The notes beneath the pieces were generated by a model. The model was not told the origin of the DNA. It did not search any database and saw nothing but the letters and a program-made list of their open reading frames with translations. A stretch of DNA of 64,000 nucleotides from an uncultured bacterium (lineage in GTDB: Bacteria > DRYD01). Position 1 is the first letter of the stretch, and every line of letters starts with the position of its first letter. The stretch spans positions 111,298 to 175,297 of the forward strand of contig CAKZQG010000007.1 in NCBI GenBank assembly GCA_937139605.1, read 5' to 3'. This document shows, piece after piece, positions 1,964-40,524 of this stretch. Position numbers and translations under genes: made by a program.

Positions 1964-2602
1964 TTATCTTGAATAGAACTCTACTATTAAATTATCTTCA
2001 ATCGGATACTCAATATCATTTCTTTCAGGTTCTCTTAAAATTTTAATAGTTAAATTATCAAGATTAACATTAATCCAAGAAGGAGTATTTAATTTATTAG
2101 AACTTTCTAAATAAGGTTTAATAACATTTAAAGCTTTATGTTCTAATTGTATCACATCACCTACTTTAACTAAATAAGAAGGAATATCTACTTTAATATT
2201 ATTAACTTTAACAAAATTATGAGCAATTAGTTGGCGTGCTTGTAATCGAGAAACAGCTAAATTGGCTCTATATAGTACATTATCTAATCTTCTTTCTAAT
2301 ATCTTCATTAGATTAGACCCAGTAAACCCTTTGCCTAACCTTGCTAATCTCTTAGCTTCATTAAAATATTTCCTAAATAACTTTTCACTAACCCAATAAA
2401 TTCTTTTCACTTTTTGTTTTTCTCTTAACCTTAACCCATAAGTAGTTAATTTAGGTCGTCTTTTAGCAAATCCATGTTGCCCTGGAGGATAATTCCTCTT
2501 TTCTATTGGACATTTTTCAGTATAACATTTCTCGCCTTTTAAATATAATTTTATACCTTCTCGCCTACATAATTTACAAACTGGTCCTATATATCTACCC
2601 AT
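1964..2602 (-). CDS. rpsD: 30S ribosomal protein S4
   Basis: MGRYIGPVCKLCRREG..., LERRLDNVLYRANLAVSRLQARQLIAHNFVKVN S4 domain. Confidence 0.97.
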   Translation of the reverse strand: MGRYIGPVCKLCRREGIKLYLKGEKCYTEKCPIEKRNYPPGQHGFAKRRPKLTTYGLRLREKQKVKRIYWVSEKLFRKYFNEAKRLARLGKGFTGSNLMKILERRLDNVLYRANLAVSRLQARQLIAHNFVKVNNIKVDIPSYLVKVGDVIQLEHKALNVIKPYLESSNKLNTPSWINVNLDNLTIKILREPERNDIEYPIEDNLIVEFYSR

Positions 2603-2624: not shown

Positions 2625-2670
2625 AAGCAAGAGGAATTTATATTCCGCTTCTCTTGCCATAAGCGGAATT
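2625..2670 (-). ncRNA. Putative H-type pseudoknot RNA element in rpsK-rpsD intergenic region (copy 1)
   Basis: Minus strand ATTCCGCTT-ATG-GCAAGAG-AAGCGGAAT-ATAAATTC-CTCTTGC: stem 1 ATTCCGCTT/AAGCGGAAT, stem 2 GCAAGAG/CTCTTGC interleaved; shares blocks with the element at 39758-39796. Confidence 0.6.
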
Positions 2671-2777: not shown

Positions 2778-3152
2778 TTAAACTCTTCTTCTTGAAGGAG
2801 GACGACACCCATTATGAGGGATAGGAGTAGCATCTTTTATATCACTTATTTCCAAACCAGCAGCTTTTAAAGCTCTAATAGCAGCTTCCCTACCCATACC
2901 AGGCCCCTTTACTATAACCTTTACTTCCCTTAATCCAGCATTGATAGCCTTTTCTGCGGCTTGTTTAGCAGCTAATTGCGCTGCAAATGGAGTACTCTTT
3001 CTAGATCCCTTATAACCAACTGTTCCACCACTAGCCCAGCTTACAGTATTCCCATTTTCATCTGTTATCGTTATTATAGTATTATTAAAAGTAGAATGAA
3101 TATGAGCAACTCCTGTAGAAGATACCAATTTTTGTTTTTTCCTTTTTGCCAT
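2778..3152 (-). CDS. rpsK: 30S ribosomal protein S11
   Basis: [22 protein letters not shown]...[15 protein letters not shown]. Confidence 0.97.
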
Positions 3153-39060: not shown

Positions 39061-39735
39061 TTAAGCTAAATTATTTACATCAAGTAAAGGAGCAATAACC
39101 ACACTTTTATATGGATTTTCCCCTACTGAGTAAGTGGTAACATATTGATTATCTTTTAAAGCCATATGTATAATTTTTCTTTCAAAAGAAAGCATAGGAG
39201 GCAAAGTAATAGGCTTCTTAGTTAATTGAACTTTTTTAGCAGTTTTAATAGCAATCTCTATTAGTTTCTTTTTACGCTTTTCTCTATAATTATCACTATC
39301 AATTACAATATAAACTCTCTTATCCTTCGGAACATTTTTATTTATAATAAAATTAACGTAATTCTGAATAGCATTAATATTATTTCCATATTTACCTATA
39401 ATCAATCCCTTATCTTCACCTTCTAAATTTATAACATACTCCCCACTATCTTCTTTTTTAATATCTATATTAACATTAGCTTGTAAATTTTTAACAATAT
39501 TTTGTATTATGTTCAATGCATTTATTAAATAATCAGGATAAACTTGATTATCTTTTAGCTTAGCTTTAATAAAAACTTCACCTGTTTTTTTAGATTTAAC
39601 TATATCCAAAATATTAGAAGGATTTTCACTAATTTTTTCTATTATTAAATTATTTTCTGGTACTTTAAAATAATTAACTGCTTTAGAAATAGCTTCTTCA
39701 TAAGTTTTTCCACTAAACTCTATATAATCACTCAT
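39061..39735 (-). CDS. jag: Jag/KhpB RNA-binding protein (KH-R3H)
   Basis: IEFSGKTYEEAISKA, GLIIGKYGNNINAIQNYVNFIIN KH, R3H-like C-terminus. Confidence 0.88.
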   Translation of the reverse strand: MSDYIEFSGKTYEEAISKAVNYFKVPENNLIIEKISENPSNILDIVKSKKTGEVFIKAKLKDNQVYPDYLINALNIIQNIVKNLQANVNIDIKKEDSGEYVINLEGEDKGLIIGKYGNNINAIQNYVNFIINKNVPKDKRVYIVIDSDNYREKRKKKLIEIAIKTAKKVQLTKKPITLPPMLSFERKIIHMALKDNQYVTTYSVGENPYKSVVIAPLLDVNNLA

Positions 39736-39757: not shown

Positions 39758-39796
39758 CTGGTTTAATTTATATTCCGCTTAACCAGCAAAGCGGAA
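39758..39796 (-). ncRNA. Putative H-type pseudoknot RNA element in yidC-jag intergenic region (copy 2)
   Basis: Minus strand TTCCGCTT-TG-CTGGTT-AAGCGGAA-TATAAATTA-AACCAG; same stem 1 and linker as 2625-2670 but a different, still complementary, stem 2. Confidence 0.6.
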
Positions 39797-39807
39797 ATTA
39801 TTTATAT

Positions 39808-40524
39808 TTATTTTTCTTCAGCTATTTTAGCTATCCTATTTAATTGCTCTTGAGTTATTTCCTTAGGTTTAAATATTTTATATAAAATAATACTAATAGG
39901 AATACTAGTTAAATTAAAAGCTAACCAATACAAAATGAAAGCCGATGGAAAAGAATAAAATAAAAATGAGAATAATAAAAGCATAATTATTTGAAATTGT
40001 TCAGCTTGCTTTTTAGATTGCTCATCATCATAACTAGTAGGCATAACTTTAAAAGAAACATACATAGATAAAACATAGAGTAAAAACAAAATCATATCAG
40101 ATTTAGCTAAAGATTTAATCCACAAAAAAGAAATATTTTGTAATATATTTATTTCTTTTTTTACAGCAAAGAAAACTCCAGCTAATATTGGTAATTGAAT
40201 TAAAGATAATAAAATGCTTGTAAAACAACCACCTATTGGATTAAATCCTAAATTTTGATACAATTCCATTTGCTTCTTATATAATTCCCGCATAGTTTCA
40301 GGATCTTTTATATCTTTATATTTTTCTTGCAATTTCAGCATATATGGTCTAATTTTTTTCATTTTTTCTGATAACTCTATAGATACTTGAATTTGCTTTA
40401 CATATAAAGGCAAAATCATTAATTTAGTTATAACTCCTAATAAAACCAAAGCCCAACCATAATCTCCAACATATGAATTCAACCAATTAATTAAACTACT
40501 AAAAATATTTATAAAAAAATCCAT
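39808..40524 (-). CDS. yidC: Membrane protein insertase YidC/OxaA
   Basis: YGWALVLLGVITKLMILPLYVKQIQ...NPIGGCFTSILLSLIQLPILAGVFFAV. Confidence 0.93.
   Translation of the reverse strand: MDFFINIFSSLINWLNSYVGDYGWALVLLGVITKLMILPLYVKQIQVSIELSEKMKKIRPYMLKLQEKYKDIKDPETMRELYKKQMELYQNLGFNPIGGCFTSILLSLIQLPILAGVFFAVKKEINILQNISFLWIKSLAKSDMILFLLYVLSMYVSFKVMPTSYDDEQSKKQAEQFQIIMLLLFSFLFYSFPSAFILYWLAFNLTSIPISIILYKIFKPKEITQEQLNRIAKIAEEK

Follow-up and report, generated by a model that had tools for sequence, protein, structure and literature searches.

A covarying RNA pseudoknot family between cistrons of Candidatus Calescibacteriaceae, with a probable role in translation initiation

The window, that is, the whole stretch of DNA analyzed here, comprises 64,000 nucleotides from an uncultured bacterium. 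A small pseudoknot is found twice on its minus strand, in the intercistronic regions of rpsK–rpsD (copy 1) and yidC–jag (copy 2). The identities of S4, S11, RpoA, KhpB/Jag, and YidC were verified by Pfam. The features of both loci are listed below and were read from the sequence where no other basis is named.

1964–2602, minus strand: rpsD (S4), gene downstream of copy 1 (PF00163, PF01479)
2627–2670, minus strand: pseudoknot copy 1, with the conserved A at 2670, 4 nt 5' of CCGC
2662–2666, minus strand: copy 1 stem 1, 5' arm CCGCT (core and fifth-pair covariation in the family)
2651–2657, minus strand: copy 1 stem 2, 5' arm GCAAGAG (complement of 2627–2633)
2645–2649, minus strand: copy 1 stem 1, 3' arm AGCGG (pairs with CCGCT)
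2634–2644, minus strand: copy 1 loop 3, AATATAAATTC (family consensus WAUANAAAU)
2627–2633, minus strand: copy 1 stem 2, 3' arm CTCTTGC
2778–3152, minus strand: rpsK (S11), gene upstream of copy 1 (PF00411)
39061–39735, minus strand: jag/khpB, gene downstream of copy 2 (R3H and KH_KhpA-B)
39758–39798, minus strand: pseudoknot copy 2
39790–39794 and 39775–39779, minus strand: copy 2 stem 1
39781–39786 and 39758–39763, minus strand: copy 2 stem 2
39808–40524, minus strand: yidC, gene upstream of copy 2 (PF02096)

Copy 1 reads AATTCCGCTTATGGCAAGAGAAGCGGAATATAAATTCCTCTTGC on the minus strand from 2670 to 2627, and the ATG of rpsD (2602) lies 24 nt downstream. The second copy reported before jag in the initial annotation is present at 39798–39758, 22 nt from the jag ATG (39735) and in the same orientation to its gene as copy 1. 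Covariance-model matches were obtained at 2669–2626 (39.3 bits) and 39797–39756 (46.6 bits). Both copies fit the pattern ANNN-CCGCY ... RGCGG-WAUANAAAU with a complementary but variable stem 2, and both lie on the strand of the following gene, about 10–24 nt before its start codon when counted from the last paired base. The rpsD pseudoknot is retained in all six genomes that carry the element, and the jag pseudoknot in five. Before rpsD, stem 2 varies by species, being of the GGCAAGAG/CUCUUGCU, AGCAAGAGAA/UUCUCUUGCU, or GCUGG type.

The consensus of 147 parsed copies is A-NNN-CCGCY-[S2]-RGCGG-WAUANAAAU-[S2'] with short linkers, where S2 and S2' are the arms of stem 2. From the 5' end, the A at position −4, NNN, CCGC, and Y are followed by a short loop 1, stem 2, a joint, R and GCGG, the sequence W A U A N A A A U, and the partner of stem 2. 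This geometry is that of a classical H-type pseudoknot, in which a short loop crosses stem 2 and an A-rich loop runs beside stem 1. A stem 1 of 9 bp had been described for copy 1, of which only the 5 bp CCGCY/RGCGG prove to be conserved. The family as a whole does not retain the outer ATT/AAT pairs, whose AAT side belongs to the loop WAUANAAAU, and an extension of stem 1 by pairs at −1 to −3 is likewise unconserved. The CCGC/GCGG core occurs in 144 of the 147 copies, the second pair being UA (two copies) or UG (one copy) in the others, and the fifth pair covaries as UA, CG, UG, or GC. Loop 3 has about 10 nt, and its positions 2, 3, 4, 6, and 7 are A, U, A, A, and A in at least 144 of the 147 copies. 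The A at −4 is not a by-product of adjacent stop codons, as it is also present in 63 of the 67 copies that are far from, or lack, a co-directional upstream stop. Stem 2 is mostly 5–9 bp long and is usually separated from the 3' arm of stem 1 by 0–6 nt, with up to 33 nt in the presence of extra hairpins. At locus L294 (60137–60215 of contig C27 of the window genome, G000), two tandem hairpins of the GTACCTTTAAGGTAC type lie between stem 2 and stem 1, indicating that this joint tolerates insertions. In 38 copies, an extra hairpin is stacked directly on stem 2. The window genome also contains sixteen near-identical copies of one subtype (GCAGACC/GGTCTGC; for example L163, L165, L170, L171, L173, L293, and L295–L298), most with an extra stem (TTAGCCT...AGGCTAA), followed by a hairpin of the AAAAGTGTATA type, and with partly shared upstream sequence. 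This subtype looks like a dispersed leader cassette that has been copied, and most of its copies are found in longer 5' leaders.

The H-type fold with a compensatory stem 2 had been deduced from two copies, and all of the pairs noted then are present. The family contains 111 different 5' arms of stem 2 in 147 copies, and complementarity is maintained. The mean helix score of stem 2 was 17.1, compared with 10.3 after the partners were re-dealt among the copies (sd 0.2 in 100 re-deals, maximum 11.0); this control is conservative because several copies have similar arms. Against shuffles of their own 3' tails, 106 of the 147 copies reached approximately the top 1% and 129 the top 5%. Stem 1 is 98.3% paired, with 24 both-side changes versus 7.0 (sd 2.0) in shuffles. 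G-U pairs account for 93 of the 1,032 pairs of stem 2, which, together with the strand-locking to the gene, indicates an RNA rather than a DNA element. The covariation confirms that the pseudoknot structure is real, far beyond chance.

The exact 9-bp pattern of stem 1 was over-strict and matched copy 1 alone; the first extra copies in the window genome and its relatives were obtained with a loose palindrome pattern and a 16-nt block. A covariance model (R1) was built from 28 copies with stem 1 only, leaving stem 2 out. At E-values up to 1, it detected 30, 19, 31, 27, 15, and 27 copies in G000 to G005, respectively, and none in G006, the sole sister-family genome examined. At E-values up to 0.001, the matches among 240 genomes fell in the same six carriers, and the pseudoknot was not found by covariance-model search in the sister-family genome or the 233 other genomes. 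The covariance-model search suggested in the initial annotation thus detected the element in six related genomes, 15–31 times in each, and in no other. A second model (R2), built from 115 copies, gave 37, 31, and 29 copies in G000, G002, and G003. Most true matches were clearly separated from the lower scores, and two matches in unrelated genomes were at chance level. Eight places that were new with respect to R1 were read directly, and the element was present in all eight. The total is at least 155 copies across six genomes, which are incomplete metagenome-assembled genomes (MAGs) whose related copies are not independent. The window genome has about 37 copies and the usage is about 30–37 copies per genome, as counted by model searches in which the E-values of short-calibrated models are rough.

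The carriers include Candidatus Calescibacterium sp. SKYB25 and bacterium SKW172. A third carrier, RSWP7, is filed under "Deltaproteobacteria" and belongs by kinship to the same genus as the window; the label of this MAG (JAPYWL; loci L065, L076, L095, and L096) is probably wrong. From the identities of the carriers, the element is restricted to one lineage, Candidatus Calescibacteriaceae of the phylum Calescibacteriota (Calescamantes), which has been reported from hot springs (PMC4791363). The genome collection and viral sequences were also scanned with the pattern CCGCT...AGCGGAATATAAAT. Most matches outside Calescibacteriaceae lacked stem 2, and the pattern was rejected. The viral contig IMGVR_UViG_3300020044_004166 (L261, 8792–8831, minus strand) has CCGCTTAGCCTTTAGCGGAATATAAATTAAAGGCT directly after a stop codon with a stem 2 of 7–8 bp, and this match is either due to chance or a true outlier. 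Rfam 15 at gathering cut-offs gave only tRNAs in the window and eight loci, and relaxing the threshold for the rpsD leader added nothing above chance level. In the relaxed search, PhotoRC-II RNA (RF01717) resembles positions 2593–2687 of the minus strand in having a hairpin followed by UAUAAAUU; the alignment is weak and at chance level (15.4 bits versus a cut-off of 39, E = 4.4). A search of the open-licence literature for structured RNAs of Calescamantes or Calescibacteriota found nothing. The pseudoknot is an undescribed RNA family, and the idea of a new small cis-acting RNA is supported.

The element generally lies between cistrons. With start codons taken from ORF predictions, a same-strand ORF starts within 55 nt downstream in 146 of the 147 copies, and the upstream gene is co-directional in 137 of the 143 copies that could be classified. 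CCGC begins 0–4 nt past the upstream stop codon in 37 of 133 pairs (median 9 nt). The distance from the last paired base to the AUG has a median of 15 nt in copies without a hairpin. The 38 hairpin copies have a raw median of 36.5 nt, which becomes 14.5 nt (interquartile range 13–16) when counted from the hairpin, and copies located 42–472 nt past the upstream stop still have a median of about 16 nt. As the spacing is fixed across both groups, the downstream AUG is the anchor of the element.

The downstream genes identified by Pfam encode ribosomal proteins (S4, S2, S15, L5, L7/L12, L17, L31, and L32), ribosome recycling factor, trigger factor, an RpoZ-type omega subunit, a class II tRNA synthetase, ATP synthase a and delta, complex I subunits, H+-pyrophosphatase, SSB, RecA, an acyl-carrier-type protein, GAPDH, a lactate/malate dehydrogenase, CutA, STAS, KhpB/Jag, and Csm2, among others; the gene names include rpsD, jag, acpP, ssb, rplL, tig, rpoZ, gapA, recA, csm2, and rpsO. 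There is a mild excess of ribosomal-protein genes (p about 0.02–0.03, with the gene number assumed). The set turns over, 7 of the 39 multi-member downstream gene families being common to both genera, and two of its most conserved members, rpsD and jag, encode RNA-binding proteins. The upstream partners are often unrelated, as in FliR-type export protein/trigger factor, Mur ligase/SSB, spermidine synthase/L31, and Cas10/Csm2. In five families (acpP, cutA, aminotransferase, DeoC/LacD-type aldolase, and HIT), the element follows the downstream gene despite a differing upstream gene. These mixed downstream genes speak against both an S4 leader and a metabolite-specific switch. An autoregulatory leader of the alpha-operon or Bacillus rpsD type was rejected since the element also precedes acpP, gapA, ssb, recA, and csm2, in line with the earlier argument that the jag copy speaks against a purely S4-specific leader. 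A metabolite riboswitch, which would serve one pathway, was rejected because the gene set is mixed.

We favor, with moderate confidence, a dispersed, strand-specific intercistronic pseudoknot family that would influence how translation starts at the gene immediately downstream. The element probably helps ribosomes to start the downstream genes. The near-invariant CCGC/GCGG of stem 1 and the A-rich loop 3 may form a common recognition surface, and stem 2 may be needed only as a helix. The pseudoknot, whose 3' edge is about 15 nt upstream of the AUG, would be placed on the platform of the 30S subunit, where the mRNA exits, and could dock this subunit; initiation at the downstream cistron would then not depend on the preceding gene. 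The net effect may be activation, or the element may be a switch that responds to a trans-acting factor. Codon usage showed no significant difference between downstream and upstream genes, and a role in raising expression is thus unsupported by this test. Shine–Dalgarno motifs precede 17% of the pseudoknot genes versus 42% in the window genome (p = 0.03), but no reduction was found in the other genus, and the idea that the pseudoknot replaces the Shine–Dalgarno sequence was rejected. An intrinsic terminator was also rejected, as stem 2 is followed not by a U-tract but mostly by A-rich linkers.

In other bacteria, ribosomal protein bS1 is located on S2, at the platform or mRNA-exit side of the 30S subunit, and normally holds messages on the ribosome. 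Since the structured edge at about −15 would correspond to this side, bS1 was searched for. G006, which has no pseudoknots, encodes a bS1 with four S1 domains (contig C63, 2223–3227, L301; TIGR00717, 227 bits; four S1 domains in Pfam). Using TIGR00717, PF00575, and the G006 bS1 protein as queries, bS1 was not found in the six carriers, whose detectable S1 domains occur only in PNPase and RNase E/G. The six carriers therefore appear to lack bS1, and it is unlikely that incompleteness alone (completeness 71–90%) explains its absence from all six. The contrast is correlative and represents one evolutionary event, between six genomes of one family and one of another, all incomplete MAGs. A bS1-dependent pseudoknot enhancer or standby site is improbable, as bS1 was not found in the carriers. 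As the usual occupant of the platform appears to be missing, the pseudoknot may stand in for it and do in cis part of the role of bS1 in other bacteria. A further-reaching proposal, which we regard as speculative and rather doubtful, is that a bS1-less lineage evolved a reusable cis pseudoknot for part of this task; at about 35 start sites per genome, it would dock the 30S subunit as a bacterial genome-wide internal ribosome entry module. S1 has affinity for pseudoknots (PMC10931766); the known S1-binding pseudoknots act with S1, whereas the carriers appear to be without it, which is a point against the initiation reading.

A possible but less probable explanation is a regulon in which a trans-acting RNA-binding protein reads stem 1 and loop 3 and represses or activates the whole set. 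KhpB/Jag (five genomes) and S4 (all six) are candidates, their genes being among the most conserved downstream genes, and the invariance of stem 1, loop 3, and the A at −4 exceeds the needs of folding. In Escherichia coli, S4 represses through the alpha operon pseudoknot (PMC10931766). However, the downstream genes are very diverse, with turnover from one genus to the other, and the conserved strand of the element resembles 16S rRNA no more than the shuffled background, by which 16S mimicry was also rejected. Nearly as probable as a regulon is that the element serves mRNA stability or processing, protecting a downstream 5' end or an upstream 3' end after polycistronic cleavage. Many copies lie directly past a stop codon between cistrons, and the carriers possess RNase E/G and PNPase. 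The plastid intercistronic expression element is comparable in being short, lying between cistrons, and setting expression of the downstream gene, which it does by processing, through cleavage into monocistronic mRNA (PMC2230500). However, such a role does not require the fixed AUG distance with its hairpin correction, and the presence of the element tracks the downstream gene in the five gene families. A transcription start or termination signal that merely resembles an RNA structure is very improbable: transcription might begin at the isolated A at −4 and TATAAT-like hexamers are slightly commoner just upstream, but there is neither a sharp −10 peak nor paired −35/−10 enrichment, no U-tract is present past the element, and stem-2 covariation with G-U pairs has no role in a promoter. 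The mobile palindrome raised in the initial annotation, taken as a REP- or MITE-like element without a host role, partly fits the sixteen-copy subset with its shared upstream sequence but is hardly tenable for the family, most copies being alike only at invariant positions with unrelated stem-2 arms, strand and AUG spacing being fixed, and the orthologous rpsD and jag sites persisting between species with a changed stem 2.

The initiation reading has precedents in individual leaders. The standby pseudoknot of E. coli tisB mRNA, an H-type pseudoknot in a leader, recruits the 30S subunit with S1, as proven by swaps of the stem-2 arms (PMC7708055). It serves one gene, lies far upstream of a sequestered ribosome-binding site, and depends on bS1, whereas the element described here occurs in about 30–37 copies per genome near the AUG, mostly between cistrons. 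A pseudoknot upstream of the ribosome-binding site is required for translation of repZ of plasmid ColIb-P9, a single plasmid gene under antisense RNA control (described in PMC8383071). The pseudoknots in the S4 alpha-operon and S15 (rpsO) leaders also act on initiation (PMC10931766), and rpsD and rpsO are preceded by the element here as well; those leaders are autogenous and gene-specific, whereas the present element precedes dozens of unrelated genes and has no Rfam match.

Thus, one small pseudoknot is reused 30–37 times per genome between unrelated genes with a fixed AUG geometry, and the lineage concerned has apparently lost S1. To our knowledge, cis pseudoknots affecting initiation are known as single, gene-specific cases. 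The freely rewritten stem 2 provides unusually clean natural covariation, and the family makes it testable whether 30S recruitment to internal cistrons can be achieved by an RNA module instead of a protein (bS1). The element could also find use as a compact building block with which to tune the cistrons of an operon. In a type III-A CRISPR locus, a copy lies between cas10/csm1 and csm2 (L111, 1500–1545, in G003; L226 in G005).
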